From the NCBI RefSeq assembly GCF_010747475.1, contig NZ_VSLZ01000001.1, positions 248,001 through 312,000 on the forward strand: DNA of 64,000 nucleotides. Direction: 5' to 3'. A model generated the notes under the pieces. That model was not told the DNA's origin, ran no database searches, and saw nothing but the letters and a program-made list of their open reading frames with translations. This document shows, piece by piece, positions 27,442 through 37,942 of the stretch. The position numbers were made by a program, and so were the translations under genes. The stretch comes from Halorussus sp. MSC15.2. Lineage in GTDB: Archaea > Halobacteriota > Halobacteria > Halobacteriales > Haladaptataceae. The first letter of the stretch is position 1, and the number at the start of each line of letters is the position of its first letter.

Positions 27442-29133
27442 ATGAAACACGCCGAAGGTCCGCTCCTCACCATCGACGTGAGCGACCGCACGACTCGGAC
27501 CGAGGACGTGGACGACGTTCTCGAATCGTTCGTCGGCGGCCGGGGCGCCGCCACGAAACTGGCCCACGACCGGATTCCGTTCGACGCCGACCCGTTCGGC
27601 CCGGAGAACAGTCTGTTCTTCTCGACCGGTCCGCTTCAGATGTCTCGGATGAGTTTCACCGGCCGGATGAACTGCACCGGTCTCTCGCCGCTGACCGACG
27701 GCCTGCTCTCCTCGAACGCGGGCGGGTTCCTCTCGCGGAACTTCACCGGCGCGGGCAACGCCGTGGTCGAGATTACAGGCCGGAGCGACGAGTTGCTCGC
27801 GATTCACGTCACGGACGACGGCGTGACGTTCGAGGCGGTCCCCGAACTCGAAGGCGCGACGGTCTCGGAGACCGGCGACGTCATGGCCGAGCGCCACGGT
27901 CTGGGCGACGACCAACTCGCGGTTGCCGGTCCGGCGGGCGAGAACGAGGTCCGGTTCGCGGCCATCATGACCACCGAACACCGGGCGTTCGGCCGCGGGG
28001 GTCTGGGCGCGGTCCTCGGGTCGAAGGGCGTCAAGTGCGTCTCGTTCGACGGCGACGCCGCGCCCGAGGTCGACATCGACCCGGTCTCGATGGACGTCCA
28101 CCGGGAGGCCGCGACCGACGACGACAACCCGATGAAGGCGGCCGGGACGACCAGCGTCACCGAGTACGCCAACCACGTCGGCGCGCTCCCGACGCGCTAC
28201 TTCTCGGAACTGGAGTTCGAGGGCGCGGCCGACATCGGCGGCGACGCCGTCGGCGACAAGAAGTACGAGAAGGGAACCTGCTCGCAGTGCGCGTTCGCGT
28301 GCAAACTCCCGACCAGAGACGAGGAGACGGGACTCGAAACCGAGGGGCCGGAGTACGAGACGGTGATGTCGTTCGGGTCGAACGCGGGCGTGGACGACGT
28401 GGTGTCAGTGATGAAGTCCAACGACCTCTGCGACGAACTGGGGATGGACACCATCTCCTGCGGCGACGCGGTGTCGGCGTACCTCGCGGCCGAAGACGAG
28501 TTCGGGAACTCCGACCTGATTCACGAACTGGTCGAGAAGATAGCCTACCGCGAGGAGGAGGGCGACCTACTCGCGGAGGGCGTCGCCCGCGCCCACGACG
28601 AACTGGGCGTCGAGGACTGGACCGTGAAGGGGTTGGAGTTCGCGGCCCACGACGGCCGCCACCTCAACGGGCAGGGTCTCGCGTTCGCCACCTCGAACCG
28701 CGGCGCGGACCACATGTACGCCGAGTTCTACTCGAAGGAGTACCCCCTCGTCGGCAAGGACGAGGCCGTGGACCCCGAGGGACTCGACGGCAAACCGCCG
28801 CTCGTGGCCGAGAAGGAGAACCACAACGCGATTCTCGACTCCGGCGTCGTCTGCAAGTTCTCGCGGGACTTCCTGACCGAGGAACGCCTCGAGAAACTGT
28901 TGGACGCCGACTACGACGACCTGCAGGCAATCGGTGCCCGCGTCGTGGAACTCGAACGCCACTTCAACAACCGGCGCGGGTTCGACCGGGCCGACGACGA
29001 ACTGCCCTACGACCTGCCGAACTTCGAGTCGGCGCTCGACGAGTACTACGAGGTCCGGGACTGGAACGACGACGGGACTGTCCCTGAGAGCCGGATTTCA
29101 GGCGGTTCGGGCGCGGCGAGCGCGGACGACTGA
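27442..29133 (+). CDS. Aldehyde:ferredoxin oxidoreductase (tungsten-pterin enzyme)
   Basis: The 563-residue enzyme is of the AOR family, which oxidises aldehydes to acids with ferredoxin as acceptor, using a W (or Mo) bis-pterin cofactor and one [4Fe-4S] cluster. The cluster ligands are visible: CSQCAFAC (Cys280, Cys283, Cys287) and Cys471 in GVVCKFS. The N-terminal domain shows FVGGRGAATKLAHD and the pterin-binding NCTGLSPLTDGLLSSNAGG. The AEDEFGNSD and AHDGRHLNGQGLAFATSNRGADHM segments are in the catalytic domains. Pterin/metal supply genes lie later in the window (YqeC, MobA, WtpABC). The length is slightly below the ~600 of hyperthermophile enzymes. Confidence 0.92.
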   Translation: MKHAEGPLLTIDVSDRTTRTEDVDDVLESFVGGRGAATKLAHDRIPFDADPFGPENSLFFSTGPLQMSRMSFTGRMNCTGLSPLTDGLLSSNAGGFLSRNFTGAGNAVVEITGRSDELLAIHVTDDGVTFEAVPELEGATVSETGDVMAERHGLGDDQLAVAGPAGENEVRFAAIMTTEHRAFGRGGLGAVLGSKGVKCVSFDGDAAPEVDIDPVSMDVHREAATDDDNPMKAAGTTSVTEYANHVGALPTRYFSELEFEGAADIGGDAVGDKKYEKGTCSQCAFACKLPTRDEETGLETEGPEYETVMSFGSNAGVDDVVSVMKSNDLCDELGMDTISCGDAVSAYLAAEDEFGNSDLIHELVEKIAYREEEGDLLAEGVARAHDELGVEDWTVKGLEFAAHDGRHLNGQGLAFATSNRGADHMYAEFYSKEYPLVGKDEAVDPEGLDGKPPLVAEKENHNAILDSGVVCKFSRDFLTEERLEKLLDADYDDLQAIGARVVELERHFNNRRGFDRADDELPYDLPNFESALDEYYEVRDWNDDGTVPESRISGGSGAASADD

Positions 29134-29172: not shown

Positions 29173-30987
29173 CTACCTGTCCTGTGCGGCGGTCGTGGTC
29201 TCGTCGGTGTCCGCGGTGGTCTGCTGGCCGCCCTCGGTGGTCTGCTGGCCGTCGCCCTGTCCGGACGGCACGAGTCGCAGCACCGCGCCGGTGTCGCCCT
29301 CCGGAACGCCGCGCTTGTTGACGAGAACGAGAATCTCGCCGTCCGCGTCCCGGCCGAACTGGCGGACGAACCAGTTGAACTCGCCGTCGAAGACGAGTTC
29401 GCGCATCGTCCAGAGTTGGTCGCGCGGGACGACGCCCGGTCCTTGGGGCGGGATGTCCTCCTCGCCGGTGGGTGTCGTCGTCACGTCGCCCGGCGTCCCC
29501 TCTTCGGCGGGTGCCTTCTCGACGTTCTCGGTCTCGGCCGGTTCTACCGTCGTCTGGTTGGTAGTCGTCGTCTCGTCTTGTAGCGCGCCTTCCTGAGTGG
29601 TCGTCTGGTTACCCGCCGCCTCGGTCTGGTTGGCCGTCGTCTGCGTCTGGCCGCCCTGACCGAAATTCTGAGGCGGTTCCGCGGTCAATACCCGTCCGTC
29701 CGGGGCCTCCCGGGTCGGGTCCGCGGTCCACGCGCCGTAGACGTACTTGCCTTGGAGTTGCGGGATGGTGGACTGCTCGTAACGGTGGCCGCCGATAACC
29801 GTGATACCGACCCAATCGCCGTTGTACTCGTGCGGGAACTCGACGATGGGGTCCTGAAGCGGTGCCCCGCCGTAGGGCTGGTCGGGCGCGTTCGACGGAC
29901 AGTCCGTGATGGCGCTCGGGTCGCTGGGTCGCTCCGTGCTGAAGCAGTGGGTCCCCTCCTTGACGTTCCACCCGTAGTTCCCGCCTTTCTCGACGAGGTC
30001 TACCTCCTCCCAGAGGTTCTGCCCGGCGTCGGCCACGAACATGTTGCCGTCGCTGTCGAACGAGATGCCGAACGGGTTGCGGAACCCGTAGGCGTATATC
30101 TCGTCACGTCCCGGTGCCTCGCCCGCGAACGGGTTGTCGTCCGGGATGCCGTAGGGGAGTTCTTCGCCCTGCGTGTCCACATCGATGCGGAGGACGTCGC
30201 CCATTAGATTGTGGACGATGTCCTGTCCGTTACCGCCGATGTTGTTCTCGTACCAGTCGGGGACGTGGCCGTACATGTAGTCGTTCGCGCCGCCGCCGTC
30301 GCCCATCGGGACGTAGAGGTAGCCGTCTGGACCGAACGCCATCGGTCCGGAGTCGTGGTTGTACTGGGGCGACGGAATCCGCAGCAGCTGGCGTTCGGAG
30401 TCCGGATTGCCGGACCCGAAGTCCTCGGTCGCTTGGAACTCCGAGACGACCTCGATGTGGTCCCAGTTGATAGTTCGCAGTTCGTCCGTCGGCGGCGCGC
30501 TGTAGTGGAGGTAGAACTTCCGGTTCTCCGCGAAGTTCGGGTGGAAGTCGATGCCGAGCAGGCCGCGCTCGTCGTAGTTCTGCTGGGCGTCGGCGTAGAG
30601 GCCGTAGAACGTACCCAGTTCGACCATCCGGTCGGTGATGTCCATGAACGGTTCGTCGCTGAGACCGTTCTCCGTGATGGCGTAGACCTGCCCGGTCTGG
30701 TCGGTGACGAACTCGCGGTTGTTCGGGCCTTCAGCGACCGCGTAGTCGGTCGGCGCGGTCAGTTGACCGTTCGCTACCATCTCGGTGCCGACCTGCGTCC
30801 CCTCTTGGAAGAAGCCCTGTCGCTGTCCGTCCTGTTGGGTCGTCGTCTGCTGTGCCCCCGCTAACCCTACGAATCCGGCCGCAGTCCCCGCGGCGACGCC
30901 TTGGAGGACGTTGCGTCGCGAGGGAGTCATTCCGTCCGTCTGTTCGTCTGTCTGTTCGTCGGTGGTGTCACTTTTCTCGTCACTCAT
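29173..30987 (-). CDS. Tat-exported PQQ-dependent sugar dehydrogenase (glucose/sorbosone dehydrogenase family)
   Basis: The 604-residue exported protein begins with a Thr/Asp/Gln-rich stretch and the Tat motif TPSRRNVLQGVAAGTAAGFVGLAGAQ. The six-bladed propeller of soluble PQQ sugar dehydrogenases follows: RGLLGIDFHPNFAENRKFYLHYS, GPDGYLYVPMGDGGGANDY, YGFRNPFGISFDSDGNMFVADAGQNLWEEVDLVEKGGNYGWN, and VIGGHRYEQSTIPQLQGKYVYGAW. Between the last blades lies a long Thr/Gln/Glu-rich insert (~residues 445-520), probably a disordered or glycosylated linker. It oxidises sugars or polyols outside the cell if PQQ is available; no PQQ synthesis genes are in the window. A shorter start at MTPSRRN is also possible. 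Confidence 0.87.
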   Translation of the reverse strand: MSDEKSDTTDEQTDEQTDGMTPSRRNVLQGVAAGTAAGFVGLAGAQQTTTQQDGQRQGFFQEGTQVGTEMVANGQLTAPTDYAVAEGPNNREFVTDQTGQVYAITENGLSDEPFMDITDRMVELGTFYGLYADAQQNYDERGLLGIDFHPNFAENRKFYLHYSAPPTDELRTINWDHIEVVSEFQATEDFGSGNPDSERQLLRIPSPQYNHDSGPMAFGPDGYLYVPMGDGGGANDYMYGHVPDWYENNIGGNGQDIVHNLMGDVLRIDVDTQGEELPYGIPDDNPFAGEAPGRDEIYAYGFRNPFGISFDSDGNMFVADAGQNLWEEVDLVEKGGNYGWNVKEGTHCFSTERPSDPSAITDCPSNAPDQPYGGAPLQDPIVEFPHEYNGDWVGITVIGGHRYEQSTIPQLQGKYVYGAWTADPTREAPDGRVLTAEPPQNFGQGGQTQTTANQTEAAGNQTTTQEGALQDETTTTNQTTVEPAETENVEKAPAEEGTPGDVTTTPTGEEDIPPQGPGVVPRDQLWTMRELVFDGEFNWFVRQFGRDADGEILVLVNKRGVPEGDTGAVLRLVPSGQGDGQQTTEGGQQTTADTDETTTAAQDR

Positions 30988-31240: not shown

Positions 31241-32158
31241 TTACGTTACGCTGAACCACCGTTCGAGTCCGACCGCGGGGACGAGAAACAGGAGTATCAC
31301 GAGCGACCACGCCGCGTCCACCGTGGCCGCGAACGCCGCGTCGAGGACCACCAGCGCCAGCACGCACGTTCCGACCGCCGGGCCGATAGTCTCCGGAACC
31401 GGGTTCCGGTAAGCCCGGCCTAGCGCCCGGCCGGTCCAAGCGAGGAATCCGACGCCGAGGACGAGCGACGCCGCGCCGTCGAGCGGACGCGGACGCGCGA
31501 CCGCCAACCGGACGAGGAGGACCGCTCCGGCGGCGACGGCCCCCGAACCGGCGACGAGGACGCTCCGCCGACCGCCGGACTCGGTCTCTCCCGACGCCAT
31601 GAACGTCACGGCGGCGATGTACGCGGCGACCGCGAGAGCGACGCCCGCGGCGGCCAGCGACGGCGTCGGCGACTCGCCCGCCGTCGTCCCCAGCAGGACG
31701 TTCAGCCCTCGAACCGCGCCCATCGCGGCGAACCCGGCGACCCCGCCCTTGAGAACGCCGTCGTACAGCACGATTCCCCCAGCGACCGAGACGGCGACGA
31801 TTCCGCCGACGACTCCGGCGGCGACGCCCGCCACGGCGACGCCGGCGACCAGCAACGCCGCGCCCAGCGCGTACCCCGTCCGGCGGGACACTCGCCCGGA
31901 GGGTATCGGTCGTTCCGGACGCTCTACGGCGTCCACGTCGGCGTCGAACGCGTCGTTCAGCGTCGTCCCGGCGGCGTACAACAACATCGACGCGAACGCG
32001 AGTCCGGCGACGCCGCCGAGGGTGACGCCGGTTCCGGTCGCGGCGGCGAGCGCGGCCCCCAACAGCACGTCCGGGGGCGCGGTGAAGAGGTTCGGAACCC
32101 GGACGAGTTCGGCGTACACCCCGACTGAGCGGGCGAACCGCGACCGCGCGTCGCCCAC
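31241..32158 (-). CDS. UbiA-family prenyltransferase, EboC-like
   Basis: The 305-residue integral membrane protein has about eight to nine hydrophobic helices. The first Asp-rich motif is NDAFDADVDAVERPERPIPSGR (residues ~68-89, pattern NDxxDxxxD), and the second is YDGVLKGGVAGFAAMGAVRGLN. The ERPERPIPSGR segment and the short opening VYAELVRVPNLFTAPPDVLLG match EboC proteins more than quinone or lipid-ether UbiA enzymes. It should transfer a prenyl chain to an acceptor in the membrane. It is the last gene of an operon: the GTG start at 32158 is one base after the stop of the TIM-barrel gene. The acceptor is inferred to be made by neighbouring cyclase and isomerase genes. Confidence 0.85.
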   Translation of the reverse strand: MGDARSRFARSVGVYAELVRVPNLFTAPPDVLLGAALAAATGTGVTLGGVAGLAFASMLLYAAGTTLNDAFDADVDAVERPERPIPSGRVSRRTGYALGAALLVAGVAVAGVAAGVVGGIVAVSVAGGIVLYDGVLKGGVAGFAAMGAVRGLNVLLGTTAGESPTPSLAAAGVALAVAAYIAAVTFMASGETESGGRRSVLVAGSGAVAAGAVLLVRLAVARPRPLDGAASLVLGVGFLAWTGRALGRAYRNPVPETIGPAVGTCVLALVVLDAAFAATVDAAWSLVILLFLVPAVGLERWFSVT

Positions 32159-32159
32159 C

Positions 32160-32990
32160 TCACGTCCACCCGTGTTCCGCCAAGAACGACATCGCGTCGC
32201 GGGCCGTCTCCTCGGCGGTCTCCTGATACGGGTAGAGTTCCACGGTGACGAACCCGTCGTAGCCCGACGCCTCCACGGCTTCGAGGAACGCGTCGATGTC
32301 CATCGCGCCCGCCCCGAGTTGGGTGTGTTCGTGCGAGCGGTCGGCCGGGATGTCCTCGACGTGGTAGTGGTCGGCGTACTCGCCCAGCGTCTCGACCGCC
32401 GCCGCGGGGTCCTCGCCGACGCAGAACAGGTGACCCGCGTCGAAGTTGCACCCGACGGCGGACGAATCGACCATATCGACGAACTCGAGGAACTGGTCGG
32501 TCGTCTCTATCAGCAGGTCGGGTTCGGGTTCGACCAGCAGGTCCACCCCGAGTTCCTCGGCGGTCGGAATCACCTCGTTCAGGCTCTGGACGAACGTCTC
32601 CATCGCCCACTCGCGGGACTTCCCGTCGGGAATCGGACCGCCGGGTTCGATGGAGATGTACTCGGCGTCGAACGCGTCCGCGAGGTGGAGCGCCTCGCGG
32701 GTGTAGTCGATGCGCTTCTGGCGGTACTCGGCGTCGGGTTCGACGTACGAGGGGTGGTGGAACCCCTCGATGGCAGTCAGCATGAAGGCGTTGCAGTTGC
32801 TGATTGCGAGGTCGTCATCGTCGAGCGCGCGCCGCAGTTCGGCCACGTCCTCCTCGTCCGTCTCGGGCGGGTAGAGGTGGGGTTGGTCGAACAGCAACTC
32901 GACGCCGTCGTACCCCGCGTCCGCGAGTATCTCGACCGTCTCGACCGGCCCGTAGTCGCGGAACGCGTTGGCTGAGAATCCGAAGTCCAT
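32160..32990 (-). CDS. TIM-barrel sugar-phosphate isomerase/epimerase-like protein (EboE-related)
   Basis: The 276-residue cytosolic protein belongs to the xylose-isomerase-like/AP-endonuclease-2 TIM-barrel group. Recognisable strands are MDFGFSANAFRDYG, GYDGVELLFDQPHLYP, EYISIEPGG, LLVEPEPDLLIE with the metal Glu, VGCNFDAGHLFCVGED with the metal Asp and His, HYHVEDIP, and YDGFVTVELYPY with the last Glu. All metal ligands seem present. It is the middle gene of the three-gene operon, with one-base gaps on both sides. A second homologue lies at 37094-37942, so the two may act on successive intermediates or form a heteromer. The substrate is unknown. Confidence 0.85.
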   Translation of the reverse strand: MDFGFSANAFRDYGPVETVEILADAGYDGVELLFDQPHLYPPETDEEDVAELRRALDDDDLAISNCNAFMLTAIEGFHHPSYVEPDAEYRQKRIDYTREALHLADAFDAEYISIEPGGPIPDGKSREWAMETFVQSLNEVIPTAEELGVDLLVEPEPDLLIETTDQFLEFVDMVDSSAVGCNFDAGHLFCVGEDPAAAVETLGEYADHYHVEDIPADRSHEHTQLGAGAMDIDAFLEAVEASGYDGFVTVELYPYQETAEETARDAMSFLAEHGWT

Positions 32991-32991
32991 G

Positions 32992-33792
32992 TTACCGCTC
33001 GTGGTCGAAGTTCGGCGACTGGTCGAAGAACTCGTAGGGGTTGTCGAAGACGACCTTCCGGACCTCCTCGCGGTCCCACCCTCGGTCGAGCATCTTGTCG
33101 CGGGCCTTGGGCACCGCCAGCGGGTCCGAGGGGTCCCAGTCGGCGGCGCTGTTGAGTATCATCTTGTCGGTGCCGTACTCCTCCAGCAGGTCGATGGCCT
33201 TCTCGTCCGCTATCTTCCCGGGATAGAGCGTGAATCCGACGTAGCAGTCGGTCTCCAGACTGGTGTCGATGGTGTTCTCGGTGTTGTGGTCGATGATGAT
33301 GCGCTCCTCGGTCACGTCCTCGTCCTGAATCATGTCCACGATGGTCCGGGTCCCCTCGGGCTTGTCGGTGTGAGGCGTGTGGACGATGACCGGGAGTTCG
33401 CGCTCCTCGGCCATCCGAATCTGTCGGCGGAACGCCTCGCGCTCGTCCTCGGTGTCTTGGTCGAGTCCGATTTCGCCGACGCCGACGACGGGGTCGCGGT
33501 CGAGGTACTCGGGGATGCGCTCCAGCACCTCCTCGGCCATCTCGGGGTAGTTCGCCTCCTTGGGTTCGAGACCGATGGTCACGTAGTGGTCGATGCCCGC
33601 GACTCGCTCGGCGCGGTCGGTCTCGTGTTCGATTATCTGCTCGAAGTAGTCGAAGAACGACCCGGCGTGTCGCTTGTCCTGCCCGCTCCAGAACGCCGGT
33701 TCGATACAGCACTCGATTCCCGCCTGCCGCGCCCGCTGGTAGTCGTCGGTCGAGCGCGACACCATGTGCATGTGCGGGTCGATAATGCGCAT
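32992..33792 (-). CDS. TatD-family metal-dependent hydrolase (EboB-like)
   Basis: The 266-residue amidohydrolase-fold protein begins MRIIDPHMHMVSRSTDDYQ, which contains the first metal pair HxH. GVGEIGLDQDTEDEREAFRRQIRMAEERELPVIVHTPHTDKPEGT follows with the bridging Glu and the metal His, and IIIDHNTENTI with the next ligand. TatD proteins act as DNases or hydrolases; the version in ebo clusters (EboB) is of unknown substrate. It is the first gene of the operon 33792 to 31241 and probably carries its promoter in the divergent region 33793-34192. The other strand carries the inositol-phosphate-synthase-like gene. Confidence 0.88.
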   Translation of the reverse strand: MRIIDPHMHMVSRSTDDYQRARQAGIECCIEPAFWSGQDKRHAGSFFDYFEQIIEHETDRAERVAGIDHYVTIGLEPKEANYPEMAEEVLERIPEYLDRDPVVGVGEIGLDQDTEDEREAFRRQIRMAEERELPVIVHTPHTDKPEGTRTIVDMIQDEDVTEERIIIDHNTENTIDTSLETDCYVGFTLYPGKIADEKAIDLLEEYGTDKMILNSAADWDPSDPLAVPKARDKMLDRGWDREEVRKVVFDNPYEFFDQSPNFDHER

Positions 33793-34192
33793 ACCCCCGA
33801 GAAGGACGGGTAGACCCTTTGTTATTCGTCAGTTTCCCGCAGGCGCGGCCGAGCGACGGCCCGAACCGGTCGCTCGGTCCCGTCATCGCTCTCGAACGGC
33901 CGAAATAGCTGATTGTCCGACCCAAAATAACGGGCTTAACGCGAGTATGTGGCCGTTTTAGGGCGGTGCTTCGACTGCCGGTCGTCGTCAGGCGGTGGGA
34001 ATCGCATCGTCTTCGGGGAAACTACTGGATAACTAACCGACTCCACGTCGTAGTCCCGCCGGTAATGGACGGAACTGCGATTCGCTGGCTCCGACGTGGA
34101 GTACCTACGGTGAGACGCCTCGCCGAGTCCACGAGAGCGCACTCGGAGCGTCGTTCACCGCGACCGAGGCGCGCCGGACCGCGAGGGTCACG
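33793..34192. other. Divergent regulatory region of the ebo-like cluster
   Basis: The 400-base spacer separates the TatD/isomerase/UbiA operon from the inositol-phosphate-synthase/phosphodiesterase operon. It holds no convincing gene. An 11-bp perfect inverted repeat lies at 34040-34050 and 34092-34102 (ACTCCACGTCG and its complement, 41 bases apart), a possible operator. An A+T-richer patch around 33905-33960 could hold the promoter for the leftward operon. Confidence 0.45.
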
Positions 34193-35407
34193 ATGACGGG
34201 GACGGGAATCTGGGTAATCGGCGCGCGGGGCAACGTCGCTACTACGGCGGCGGTCGGTGCGCGCGCTATCGCTCGCGGCGCGACCGACGAGACCGGACTG
34301 GTCACGGCCCGGCGGCCGACGGCGGACCTCGACCTACCCGATGTCGCCGACCTGACGTTCGCAGGCCACGAGGTCCGGGAGGGGAGTCTCGTCGAATCCG
34401 CGAGAGCGCTGTCCGAGGACGGAACGCCCGCGCCCGAGACCGTCGAGACGGTCGCCGACGACCTCCGCGCCATCGACGACCGCATCAGGACGGGCACCGC
34501 GGTCAACGCGGGCGAGGCCATCGCGGACATCGCCGACGACACCGCCGACGCCGAGCGGTCGCTCGCCGAGACCGTCTCGCGCATCCGCGACGACTACGAG
34601 TCGTTCCGGGCGAGCGAGGACCTCGACCGGGTCGTCGTCGTCAACCTCGCATCGACGGAGCCGCCGACTGCCGACCCGGAGCAGTACGACACGCTGTCGG
34701 CGTTCGAGGACGCCGTGGCCGACGACGACCCGGACCTGCCCGCGAGTTCGCTGTACGCCTACGCCGCGCTGAAGGGCGGCCACCCCTACGTCAACTTCAC
34801 GCCGAGCACCGGGAGCGCGCTCGGCGGACTGCGCGAACTCGCGGCCGAGAACGACGTGCCCCACATGGGACGCGACGCCAAGACGGGCGAGACGCTGGTC
34901 AAGTCGGCGCTCGCGCCGATGTTCGCGGGGCGCAACCTCCGGGTCATGTCGTGGGAGGGCCACAACATCCTCGGGAACACCGACGGCGCGGTCCTCGAAG
35001 ACGAGCGCAACGAGGCGGGCAAGTTGGAGAGCAAGGGCGACATCCTCGACGCCATCTTGCCGGACGTGGGGCACAATCGGGTCCGAATCGACTACACGCC
35101 GTCGCTGGGCGACTGGAAGACCGCGTGGGACTACATTCACTTCGAGGGCTTTCTCGACACCGAGATGACGATGCAGTTCACGTGGGAGGGGTCGGACTCG
35201 GCGCTGGCCGCGCCCCTCGTCCTCGACCTCGTCCGACTCGTGGCGTACGCCGACCGGCGGGGCGAGGGCGGACTCCAGCGCCACCTCGCGTCGTTCTTCA
35301 AGGCCCCGCTCGGCGTGGAGGAACACGACCTCTCCCGGCAGTTCGAGATGCTCGACGAGTACGCCCGCGAGCGACGCTCGGAGGTGAGCGCCGGTGGCGA
35401 GCGGTGA
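34193..35407 (+). CDS. Inositol-3-phosphate synthase-like sugar-phosphate cyclase
   Basis: The 404-residue enzyme matches myo-inositol-phosphate synthase: the NAD loop GIWVIGARGNVATTAAVG (residues 5-22), YVNFTPSTGSALGGL, GRDAKTGETLVKSALAPMF (equivalent to GDDxKSGQT, with the catalytic lysines), MSWEGHNILGNTDGAVL, and RIDYTPSLGDWKTAWDYIHFEGF. The family converts glucose 6-phosphate to inositol phosphate through an NAD-linked oxidation, cyclisation and reduction. A cyclitol product would fit as precursor for the neighbouring phosphodiesterase, isomerases and prenyltransferase. It overlaps the next gene by 14 bases. Whether inositol itself or another cyclitol is made cannot be read. Confidence 0.85.
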   Translation: MTGTGIWVIGARGNVATTAAVGARAIARGATDETGLVTARRPTADLDLPDVADLTFAGHEVREGSLVESARALSEDGTPAPETVETVADDLRAIDDRIRTGTAVNAGEAIADIADDTADAERSLAETVSRIRDDYESFRASEDLDRVVVVNLASTEPPTADPEQYDTLSAFEDAVADDDPDLPASSLYAYAALKGGHPYVNFTPSTGSALGGLRELAAENDVPHMGRDAKTGETLVKSALAPMFAGRNLRVMSWEGHNILGNTDGAVLEDERNEAGKLESKGDILDAILPDVGHNRVRIDYTPSLGDWKTAWDYIHFEGFLDTEMTMQFTWEGSDSALAAPLVLDLVRLVAYADRRGEGGLQRHLASFFKAPLGVEEHDLSRQFEMLDEYARERRSEVSAGGER

Positions 35408-36770
35408 GGACGCCGACGCCGGGCGAGTGATAGTCCTCGACGTGGTCGGTCTCCGCCCGGACCACGTCGAGACGGGTCTCGCCGAGCGAATCGGCGACGC
35501 GCTGGACGGCGGTTCGACCGCCGCGCTCCGCCCGCCGTTCCCCGCGGTCACGGTGCCGGTCCAGACGACGCTCGGCGAGGGTCGGTCGCCCGCGAGTCAC
35601 GGCGACGTCTCCAGCGGCGAGTACGACCGCGACCGCGAGACCGTGGCCTTCTGGGAGCGCGACCGGGACGACCGGGACCGCATCTGGGAGACCGCGAGCG
35701 ACGCCGGTCTCACCACCGGCGCGCTGTTCTTCCAGCACCTCATCGGGACCGACGCCGACGTGGCGGTGACGCCCTCGCCCATCGAGGACGAGAACAACGA
35801 CCTCGTCGAGATGAACTGCTGGACCAACCCCGACGGCTTCTACGACGACCTCGAAGCCGAGTACGGCCACTTCCCGCTCCACCGGTACTGGGGTCCCGGC
35901 GCGAGTCGCGAGAGCAGCGAGTGGATTCTGAACGCGGCCCGCGAGGCGGTCGAACGCTACGACCCGGACCTGCTGTGGGTGTACGTTCCCCACCTCGACT
36001 ACGACGCCCAGCGCCACGGTCCCGACGCCCCCGAGGTCGAGTCGGCGGTCGAGACGGTGGACGACCTCGTCGGCGAGTTCGTCGCCGACCTCCGGGACGA
36101 CGCGCGATGGGACGAGACCGTCGTGAACGTCCTCAGCGAGTACGGATTCCACGAGGTCGAGACCCCCGTCTTCCCGAACCGCGCGCTCCGAGAGGCCGGA
36201 CTGCTGTCGGTCCGGAACGACGGCGAGGGCGGCGAGGAAGTGGATATCCCGGCGTCGGACGCGTTCGCCATGGTAGACCATCAAGTCGCGCACGTTTACA
36301 CGGACTCTCCGTCGGACGCCCGCGACGCGCTCGCCGACCTCGACGGCGTGGCCGAGGTGCTGGACGACCGGGGGAAGGCCGAGCGAGACGTGGACCACCC
36401 GAACGCGGGCGACCTCGTTCTCGTCGCCGACCCGGACGCGTGGTTCCAGTACTACTGGTGGGACGACGACGAGGACGCCCCCGCCTACGCGACGGAGATG
36501 GACATCCACGCGAAACCGGGGTTCGACCCGTGCGAACTGTTCTTCGGCGATTCGGGGCCGGTCTCGCTCGACGCGACGAAGGTGAGCGGGTCCCACGGCC
36601 GGGTGGACGAGGGGACGCTGGCGTTCTACGGTCTCAGCGGCCCGGCGGCCCCGGACCTCGGACTCGACGGGCCGGTGGACGCGCGCGCCGTCGCGCCGAC
36701 CGTCGCGGACCTCCTCGGTATCGAGGACGAACTCGACGCGGCGTTCGAGGCGTCGTCGCTGTTGGAGTAG
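35394..36770 (+). CDS. Type I phosphodiesterase/nucleotide pyrophosphatase-like protein (EboF-like)
   Basis: The 458-residue alkaline-phosphatase-superfamily protein begins RVIVLDVVGLRPDHVETG (metal Asp) and PFPAVTVPVQTTLGEGRSPASHGDV with the probable nucleophile Thr. WVYVPHLDYDAQRHGPDAPE provides metal Asp and His, NVLSEYGFHEVE is in the place of the SDHG motif (here SEYGFH), and SGSHGRVDEG carries the last His. There is no signal peptide. The GTG start at 35394 overlaps the cyclase gene by 14 bases, so the two are translationally coupled. In ebo clusters the equivalent gene is EboF. The likely role is removal or transfer of a phosphate or phosphodiester from the cyclitol product. Confidence 0.83.
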   Translation: MASGEDADAGRVIVLDVVGLRPDHVETGLAERIGDALDGGSTAALRPPFPAVTVPVQTTLGEGRSPASHGDVSSGEYDRDRETVAFWERDRDDRDRIWETASDAGLTTGALFFQHLIGTDADVAVTPSPIEDENNDLVEMNCWTNPDGFYDDLEAEYGHFPLHRYWGPGASRESSEWILNAAREAVERYDPDLLWVYVPHLDYDAQRHGPDAPEVESAVETVDDLVGEFVADLRDDARWDETVVNVLSEYGFHEVETPVFPNRALREAGLLSVRNDGEGGEEVDIPASDAFAMVDHQVAHVYTDSPSDARDALADLDGVAEVLDDRGKAERDVDHPNAGDLVLVADPDAWFQYYWWDDDEDAPAYATEMDIHAKPGFDPCELFFGDSGPVSLDATKVSGSHGRVDEGTLAFYGLSGPAAPDLGLDGPVDARAVAPTVADLLGIEDELDAAFEASSLLE

Positions 36771-36793
36771 TTCGAAAGTTTCCTCGCTTCGGA

Positions 36794-36934
36794 CTAACTC
36801 AGGAACGCTCCCGGCGTGCGCTCGAACTCCTCTCTGTGTTCGTCACAGCAGAAGTAGTACGACTCACCCGACCGAGTGGTCGTTATCTCCTCGTACTCGT
36901 GGACCCGTCCCCCGCAGACGAAACACTCCGCCAT
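36794..36934 (-). CDS. 46-residue TRASH-like zinc-binding protein
   Basis: The protein runs MAECFVCGGRVHEYEEITTT, then SYYFCCDEHREEFERTPGAF. The CxxC ... FCCxxH pattern and the FE-RTP ending resemble the TRASH/YHS-type treble-clef metal-binding domain. It is clearly coding by composition and by the clean ATG and TAG. It lies on the opposite strand in the spacer between the phosphodiesterase and the second TIM-barrel gene. Such proteins bind heavy metals or act as small adaptors. Its relation to the ebo-like cluster is unknown. Confidence 0.65.
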   Translation of the reverse strand: MAECFVCGGRVHEYEEITTTRSGESYYFCCDEHREEFERTPGAFLS

Positions 36935-36985
36935 GTCCGATTCGTGGGCTGGCGAGCGCAAAAGGACTCTGGCCGCAGGTCGCTC

Positions 36986-37094
36986 ATAGGGTCGGTTGTA
37001 ACTATTTTCGGTAGTGGTCCGTGACCGCCGGTATCTCGGGCGTGAAACAACCTGACGACGAATACGGGCTGGAACGAATTACAACCGACCCTAT
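36986..37094. repeat. 16-bp perfect inverted repeat bracketing 77 bp
   Basis: The left arm at 36986-37001 is ATAGGGTCGGTTGTAA, and the right arm at 37079-37094 is its exact reverse complement. Neighbouring bases do not pair, so the arms end sharply, as do terminal inverted repeats of small mobile elements. No target-site duplication is evident at the outer edges. The right arm's last base is the first base of the TGA stop signal (complement) of the TIM-barrel gene at 37094-37942. It may be a MITE-like relic, a protein binding site, or a long-loop structure in the transcript. Confidence 0.75.
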
Positions 37095-37942
37095 CAGACG
37101 TACTGGGCCAACGCCTCGAACGCCTCCGCGGCCGCCCGGTCGGGTTCGGCCGGGTACGTGTACAGTTCCAGCGTGGCGAACCCGTCGTAGCCGACATCGT
37201 CGAGGGCGTCGAAGACGGTCCCGAAGTCGAGGTCCCCTTCGCCCGGAATCCGGTGGTAATGTTTCCCCCGGCGTCCGCCGACGATGTCCTCCAGATGGAC
37301 ACCGGTGATGTGACCCGCCGACCGACGTATCGTCTCCCCGAGGTCCTCGCCGTAGACCGCAGCGTGGCCCACGTCGAGGTTGATGCCCAGCGAGTCGCGG
37401 CCGGTCGCCTCGACGAGTTCGAGTACCTCGTCGGTACACTCGACGAGCAGTTCCGGTTCGAACTCGATGCCGACCTCGACCCCCTTCGACTCGGCGTGGT
37501 CGAGTATCGCGTCGAGCGACTGGTCGAGGTACTCGCGGGCCTGCTCGGGCGGGTTCCCCGGCAACGGACGGCCGGTCGCCACGCAGACCGCCGGAGCGCC
37601 GACCGCCTCGGCGAGGTCGATGGCGCGCTTCGTGTACTCGACCCGCCACTCGCGCAGTTCGTCGTCGGCGTTGACGATGCTCGGTTCGAAGAACGCGGAT
37701 GGCGGCGCGTCGTCGTAGTACCCCATCGCGGTGTTGGCGTTCACGTTCGACACGTCGAGACCGGTCTCGTCCAGCGCCTCGCGGAGCGACCGGGTCTCCT
37801 CGTCGCCGAACGAGGGGAAGTAGGCGTGGGGGTCGTCGCCGAGTATCTCGACGCCGGCGTAGTCGTGGTCCGCGATTCGACGTACCGCTTCCGGGAGCGA
37901 GTGGCGGGTGTAGGCGTTCGTGGAGAAGGCCAGTTCGACCAT
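37094..37942 (-). CDS. Second TIM-barrel sugar-phosphate isomerase/epimerase (EboE-like)
   Basis: The 282-residue protein is a homologue of the one at 32160-32990. Shared features are MVELAFSTNAYTRH, YAGVEILGDDPHAYFP, AVCVATGRPLPGNPPEQ, GIEFEPELLVECTDE with the metal Glu, GINLDVGHAAVYGEDLG with the metal Asp and His, TGVHLEDIVGGRRGKHYHRIPGEGDLDF, and YDGFATLELYTYP with the last Glu. The HLED...KHYHRIPGEGDLDF stretch is characteristic of active epimerase-type barrels. It probably belongs to the ebo-like gene set, though on its own transcript. The stop lies within the inverted repeat arm. Substrate unknown. Confidence 0.85.
   Translation of the reverse strand: MVELAFSTNAYTRHSLPEAVRRIADHDYAGVEILGDDPHAYFPSFGDEETRSLREALDETGLDVSNVNANTAMGYYDDAPPSAFFEPSIVNADDELREWRVEYTKRAIDLAEAVGAPAVCVATGRPLPGNPPEQAREYLDQSLDAILDHAESKGVEVGIEFEPELLVECTDEVLELVEATGRDSLGINLDVGHAAVYGEDLGETIRRSAGHITGVHLEDIVGGRRGKHYHRIPGEGDLDFGTVFDALDDVGYDGFATLELYTYPAEPDRAAAEAFEALAQYV

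Follow-up and report, generated by a model that had tools for sequence, protein, structure and literature searches.

Can an archaeon carry an ebo cluster, and from which cyclitol would such a cluster build its product? The ebo genes are widespread in bacteria and present in some plastids. An isoprenoid-cyclitol product has been predicted for them (PMC5133447). The question is raised here by positions 31241-37942 of a 64,000-nucleotide stretch of Halorussus sp. MSC15.2 (contig NZ_VSLZ01000001.1, positions 248,001 to 312,000; hereafter the window), where a previous sequence-only reading had seen an archaeal version of ebo. Our results favor an ebo-related cluster of inositol type in this Halorussus-like haloarchaeon, in which a myo-inositol-1-phosphate synthase (MIPS) is found instead of the usual cyclase EboD, and which would make and prenylate a myo-inositol-derived cyclitol. 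We give this reading, its product and activities being deduced from homology, a probability of about 0.58. The locus is composed as follows.

31241-32158, minus strand: UbiA, EboC/SCO3242-like prenyltransferase of 305 aa (Pfam UbiA)
32160-32990, minus strand: TIM1, xylose-isomerase-like TIM barrel (Pfam AP_endonuc_2)
32992-33792, minus strand: EboB, TatD-like amidohydrolase (Pfam TatD_DNase)
33793-34192: intergenic region of 400 bp between the divergent EboB and MIPS transcription units, without an EboA-sized open reading frame (ORF)
34193-35407, plus strand: MIPS, archaeal-type myo-inositol-1-phosphate synthase (Pfam NAD_binding_5 and Inos-1-P_synth)
35394-36770, plus strand: EboF-type phosphodiesterase (PDE) of the nucleotide pyrophosphatase family (Pfam Phosphodiest)
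37094-37942, minus strand: TIM2, second xylose-isomerase-like TIM barrel (Pfam AP_endonuc_2)

The six ORFs lie where the sequence-only reading had placed them and display the folds it had named, all six proteins scoring above the curated Pfam cut-offs. Its description of tightly packed genes also holds: on the minus strand a single base separates UbiA from TIM1 and TIM1 from TatD, on the plus strand MIPS and PDE share 14 bases, and TIM2 is located past PDE. The nearest named genome is that of Halorussus aquaticus, whose TatD is 99% identical.

Which of these proteins are related to Ebo proteins? The window TatD shares 44-46% identity over its full length with most bacterial EboB (41% with that of Deinococcus), against 25% with ordinary haloarchaeal TatD proteins, and the EboB alignment contains 55 invariant columns including EPAFW and HTPH. 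In a quick tree, evaluated with the Shimodaira-Hasegawa-like approximate likelihood ratio test (SH-aLRT) only, haloarchaeal EboB form a single clade (99) nested in EboB, sister to the protein of a deltaproteobacterial metagenome-assembled genome (MAG; 94) and away from the actinobacterial ones. Identity, invariant columns and tree position thus place the window TatD in the EboB lineage, as had been proposed. The PDE aligns with five EboF at 34-43% identity over most of its length (42% over 436 aa with Streptomyces EboF, 34-40% with canonical EboF). The motif SEYG replaces the metal-site SDHG of ordinary nucleotide pyrophosphatases/phosphodiesterases in 41 of 47 haloarchaeal and 51 of 57 bacterial members, and both features assign this protein to EboF. 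For UbiA, the best NCBIfam profiles are EboC (NF035940, 191.7 bits for a cut-off of 250) and the SCO3242 family (NF045897, 180.5 bits for a cut-off of 260), the next-best family giving 67 bits. The protein carries the motifs NDAFDADVDAVERPERPIPSG and YDGVLK...MGAVRGLN and is about 29% identical to canonical EboC over the full length. Ebo-type UbiA, haloarchaeal ones included, are split in a tree from 20 other haloarchaeal UbiA with an SH-aLRT of 100. Tree and profiles thus assign it to the EboC lineage of the UbiA superfamily and sustain the EboC-like character first attributed to it.

To examine linkage, UbiA was used as the search query, so that it is present in every one of the 40 haloarchaeal loci retrieved, each spanning 20 kb at most. 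The TatD-TIM1-UbiA trio is found together in 40/40 loci and the six-gene set is complete in 31/40, which is not chance. The commonest layout, seen in most of the 40 loci, has MIPS-PDE divergent from TatD-TIM1-UbiA-TIM2; the window and genome G009 differ from it, TIM2 being located beyond PDE. Two loci of genome G233 are broken at contig ends, with MIPS-PDE and the TatD gene start on other contigs. Close relatives of UbiA (45-66% identity) occur in 56 of 391 Halobacteria-class genomes, representing 19 of 86 genera, and none was found in viral contigs. EboB-type TatD is restricted, among 393 genomes of the phylum, to haloarchaeal genomes of the window's order. The six-gene set is, as judged from these sequences, conserved and co-inherited across scattered haloarchaea. 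Crude ORF calling in haloarchaeal neighborhoods revealed no conserved seventh gene, apart from a GSDH-family gene in a minority. Thus linkage across haloarchaeal genomes, which the sequence-only reading had singled out as the point to verify, held, and neither a grouping of the proteins with unrelated families nor a lack of linkage, the two outcomes it would not have survived, was encountered.

A one-to-one mapping would make the cyclase EboD, and on this point the reading has to be corrected. What the window encodes is a genuine homologue of MIPS that has no relationship to EboD. Its best match in the PDB is the Archaeoglobus fulgidus mIPS (1u1i, 290 bits), aligned end to end; the two are of the same family, most active-site positions are intact, and the NILGxxDG loop is aligned. 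The active-site lysines align with those of 1u1i, which we take to be the catalytic K274, K278, K306 and K367. What distinguishes the haloarchaeal proteins from the Archaeoglobus enzyme is that they form their own clade (99) and lie in an ebo-like cluster. The window protein is 48% identical to the MIPS of a Streptomyces cluster, and trees of cluster MIPS show a haloarchaeal and an actinobacterial clade (99 each), both within the archaeal-type group. MIPS is almost, not strictly, tied to the cluster: it is present in 28/28 UbiA-bearing genomes and in 1/214 others (n=242; Fisher p about 8e-36, uncorrected for shared ancestry), and in 23 of 28 further UbiA-positive genomes.

Comparison with the Ebo families upheld homology to EboB, EboC and EboF and did not uphold a one-to-one mapping, EboA, EboD and EboE being absent. 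EboA (NF035938) was found in 0/30 cluster-bearing genomes, with positive controls at 165 and 133 bits. The EboE profile (NF035939, cut-off 250 bits) reached at most 28 bits in haloarchaea and 402 and 434 bits in positive controls. The Haloferax volcanii genome, with the MIPS homologue HVO_B0213 and with HVO_B0215, a homologue of a membrane-bound-dehydrogenase-domain protein, gives a weak match to this profile, as do cluster-bearing genomes, and may carry a cluster. The DHQ (3-dehydroquinate)-synthase-like EboD had no match in 26 of the 30 cluster-bearing haloarchaeal genomes and only 20-25 bits in the other four. Haloarchaeal loci also gave no BLAST match to one Deinococcus EboG, a short and fast-evolving protein. 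Since three defining genes are absent on testing, we do not class the locus as a canonical ebo cluster. It has in common with canonical ebo/EDB clusters (EboABCDEF of Nostoc, Bacteroidota, Pseudomonas and eustigmatophyte plastids) EboB (46%), EboC, EboF, gene linkage, and the logic of a sugar cyclase combined with a prenyltransferase. It differs from them by MIPS instead of EboD, by the lack of EboA and of a true EboE, and by its archaeal host. MIPS, together with the additional TIM barrels, occupies the place that EboD would take.

Neither barrel can be taken as EboE, TIM1 and TIM2 being both rejected on the curated NF035939 cut-off. An EPEP-type motif is common to TIM1, TIM2, the actinobacterial barrel and EboE; we did not use it as evidence because xylose isomerases carry a similar EPKP motif. 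The best NCBIfam match of TIM1 is IolO (76 bits). Its residues E156, D184, H210 and E251 are invariant, and metal-ligand positions are invariant across TIM1, TIM2 and their bacterial relatives. The AlphaFold model of TIM1 (predicted local distance difference test, pLDDT, 93) aligns best to D-tagatose/ketose 3-epimerase-type barrels (VIA-align Z about 31, several families tied), Thermotoga TM0416 being among its structural matches. TIM1 is therefore a predicted metal-dependent ketose or inosose epimerase or isomerase, a fold that does not give the substrate. The closest bacterial relative of TIM1 comes from a Phycisphaerae MAG, where EboB is encoded nearby. TIM2 is directly downstream of EboC in most relatives, and its closest bacterial homologues adjoin ebo genes in loci L117, L128 and L138 (SH-aLRT 94).

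Is the inositol type restricted to archaea? Streptomyces plasmids carry MIPS-SCO3242-TIM-EboA-EboB-EboE-EboF, a layout which, among 80 loci from named genomes, recurs across Actinobacteria. Clusters of this type, exemplified by the Streptomyces sp. NBC_01563 plasmid (L099), share with haloarchaea MIPS (48%), an EboC-type UbiA, EboB (44-46%), EboF (42%) and one more TIM barrel of xylose-isomerase type (31%), with no EboD among their genes. Haloarchaea differ by the lack of EboA and EboE, by a divergent two-unit layout, by a pair of TIM barrels of which neither is an orthologue of the actinobacterial barrel, and by an EboC that scores 180 bits for an SCO3242 cut-off of 260. NCBI naming already covers actinobacterial genes of MIPS-type clusters, SCO3242 prenyltransferase, EboA and EboE being named in L099. 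The deltaproteobacterial MAG JACREV010000085.1 (L117) displays MIPS-TIM-EboB-EboC. As in haloarchaea, EboA and EboE were not found in this assembly, its EboB, with 55% identity, branches as the sister of haloarchaeal EboB (SH-aLRT 94), and its TIM is 42% identical. It differs by a single TIM barrel, by EboF, also not found in the assembly, and by EboC and MIPS for which a sister relationship to the haloarchaeal proteins is not clear. Three further loci are informative.

L105, 2824-9949: mixed cluster on a Gemmatirosa kalamazoonensis plasmid, with an EboG/EboB/EboE/EboF backbone and an EboC-MIPS-TIM module
L128, 270-1145: gammaproteobacterial TIM2-like barrel
L138, 7294-8118: gammaproteobacterial TIM2-like barrel

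In the two gammaproteobacterial MAGs, the TIM2-like barrel (43-46%) adjoins EboC-EboA-EboB-EboE-EboF, MIPS is elsewhere in the genome, and no EboD was seen in the loci. The backbone of the Gemmatirosa cluster is Deinococcus-like or canonical, its EboB being 75% identical to that of Deinococcus (SH-aLRT 100), and EboC, MIPS and the TIM barrel are adjacent. This EboC, however, groups with SCO3242 (99/96) and lies beside MIPS and TIM, so that the three genes appear to be exchanged as a single module, and the cluster looks like the outcome of such a natural exchange. The same MIPS substitution being present in bacteria, it is not a haloarchaeal invention. An origin from Actinobacteria is not supported, EboB being nearer to the deltaproteobacterial MAG and the MIPS tree giving no resolution on this point. 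Haloarchaeal EboC come out as sister to SCO3242 with an SH-aLRT of 91 in a quick tree and with 56/62 in a careful one. This grouping being weak, we make no claim that the MIPS types of haloarchaea and Actinobacteria share an origin.

How could such a cluster work? MIPS would convert glucose 6-phosphate into myo-inositol 1-phosphate, and the metal-dependent TIM barrels may isomerize or epimerize a cyclitol- or ketose-type intermediate, so that together they would form a cyclitol-supplying module replacing EboD. EboF would strip the phosphate or cleave a phosphodiester. DGGGP (digeranylgeranylglyceryl phosphate) synthases, which are relatives of EboC, O-prenylate a polyol phosphate. By analogy, the membrane-embedded EboC could join an isoprenoid, probably the geranylgeranyl usual in haloarchaea, to the cyclitol or its phosphate, and EboB may act late, trimming or remodeling the product. 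The latter would be a small prenyl-cyclitol lipid, either itself an active compound or a carrier of a metabolite across the membrane, as in the cyanobacterial model where a prenylated cyclitol lipid helps to export a metabolite from the cytoplasm (PMC6282210).

Several observations weigh against this scheme. The activity and product of each member are deduced from homology. UbiA does not reach the curated cut-off of either EboC or SCO3242; the best tree unites haloarchaeal EboC with bacterial MIPS-type EboC with a support of 56/62, and a tree uniting all bacterial Ebo UbiA is not rejected by the approximately unbiased (AU) test (p-AU 0.35). Nostoc punctiforme needs EboA for export, and EboA is absent in haloarchaea. 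Full-length MIPS is missing in 5/56 cluster-bearing haloarchaea: G347, G390 and G321 carry the cluster without a MIPS match, and G338 and G380 have MIPS only as fragments of 52-69 residues. Haloarcula pellucida likewise has no full-length MIPS. Fragments of this size lie beside otherwise kept clusters at L084 6900-7055 and L091 6056-6262. Together with the three MIPS-less clusters, they indicate that the cyclase can be lost first. Finally, Ubi-297, the sole assayed EboC relative, farnesylates quinoline acids such as 8-hydroxyquinoline-2-carboxylic acid (8-HQA) in vitro (PMC9235831), and therefore the acceptor of EboC may be aromatic.

This last point leads to an alternative in which the product is a prenylated aromatic or another non-cyclitol compound, MIPS and TIM barrels only supplying a sugar-derived decoration. 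It would agree with the inability of Nostoc ebo mutants to export an indole alkaloid (PMC6282210) and with those haloarchaea which retain EboB-TIM1-EboC-TIM2 without MIPS. However, no aromatic biosynthesis genes are conserved in haloarchaeal neighborhoods, and in Gemmatirosa a SCO3242-type EboC, within a cluster that is EboG-type in other respects, is accompanied by MIPS and a TIM barrel, which links EboC to the cyclase. We hold this alternative as unlikely.

Alternatively, MIPS could feed archaetidylinositol synthesis, the other genes being involved in lipid remodeling or being unrelated neighbors. MIPS has this function in methanogens. A review of gene annotation in Haloferax volcanii assigns the MIPS homologue HVO_B0213 to the synthesis of polar lipids whose head group derives from inositol (PMC8305020). 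Yet a Pfam scan of the six genes and four flanking ones detected no CDP-alcohol phosphatidyltransferase, and according to the same review the haloarchaeal archaetidyltransferase candidate sits in a highly conserved operon (PMC8305020). Moreover, MIPS is confined to 29/242 genomes and follows EboC almost without exception, unlike a general head-group enzyme. The data speak for a role of the rare haloarchaeal MIPS in the ebo-like pathway rather than in general inositol-lipid synthesis, and we consider this second alternative improbable. As for a sugar or inositol catabolic cluster made of TIM isomerases, a TatD-like lactonase and a phosphatase, with UbiA incidental, the ABC sugar transporters, Gfo/Idh/MocA proteins and mannonate dehydratase flanking some copies, the resemblance of the TIM barrels to IolO (an inositol catabolism protein) and ketose epimerases, and the enrichment of GSDH nearby do not save it from being very improbable, as MIPS is a biosynthetic enzyme, the flanks are not conserved while EboB-TIM1 adjoin UbiA in all loci retrieved with it, and TatD and PDE belong specifically to EboB and EboF rather than to their families at large.

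The preferred reading, a prenylated cyclitol made from inositol, has some consequences. An ebo version whose cyclase has a characterized relative, with inositol phosphate as product, narrows the likely substrate. A haloarchaeal host, some being genetically tractable, makes ebo chemistry testable, and the Gemmatirosa case suggests joint exchange of prenyltransferase and cyclase. This is apparently the first archaeal ebo-like cluster: the literature that we covered, largely outside subscription journals, contained no description of ebo in archaea, as the sequence-only reading had believed, and the ebo papers, from mostly the same kind of source, no mention of inositol or of a MIPS variant.

Two genes adjacent to the cluster deserve consideration.

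29173-30987, minus strand: GSDH-family beta-propeller dehydrogenase, a candidate accessory gene and not a core one (Pfam GSDH)
27442-29133: aldehyde ferredoxin oxidoreductase-family protein, adjoining the GSDH gene

The GSDH protein carries a twin-arginine (Tat)-like signal (SRRNVLQG). In 9/26 genomes, against 0.48 expected and with relatedness uncorrected, a GSDH gene maps to within 10 kb of EboC, and in one Streptomyces cluster a ScyD/ScyE-family gene adjoins MIPS. We treat this association as a lead only. A parallel with the role proposed for ebo before the last scytonemin step in cyanobacteria makes it conceivable, if rather doubtful, that a new kind of geranylgeranyl-cyclitol lipid made by EboC from MIPS-derived inositol is the carrier of a metabolite finished outside by a Tat-exported GSDH-family oxidoreductase. 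The export requirement for ebo has been shown only for the scytonemin monomer in Nostoc (PMC6282210). If haloarchaea do make such a carrier lipid, the EboB/EboC/EboF core would serve as a general device whose cyclitol module is exchangeable, common to Bacteria and Archaea. As for the aldehyde ferredoxin oxidoreductase-family gene, a high-identity copy next to the cluster was seen only in the near-identical Halorussus genome.

Haloarchaeal MIPS are also found in a second context, where MIPS 67-73% identical lie near GT4-like glycosyltransferases and Gfo/Idh/MocA oxidoreductases, in stretches from which the Ebo genes are absent.

L223, 10348-11532 (G000:C2:31351-32535): MIPS of the second context
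L224, 9750-10946: MIPS of the second context
L255, 8983-10227: MIPS of the second context

This arrangement, which perhaps corresponds to a glycosyl-inositol pathway, is shared by the genome from which the window comes, genome G232 and a plasmid of Halomarina.

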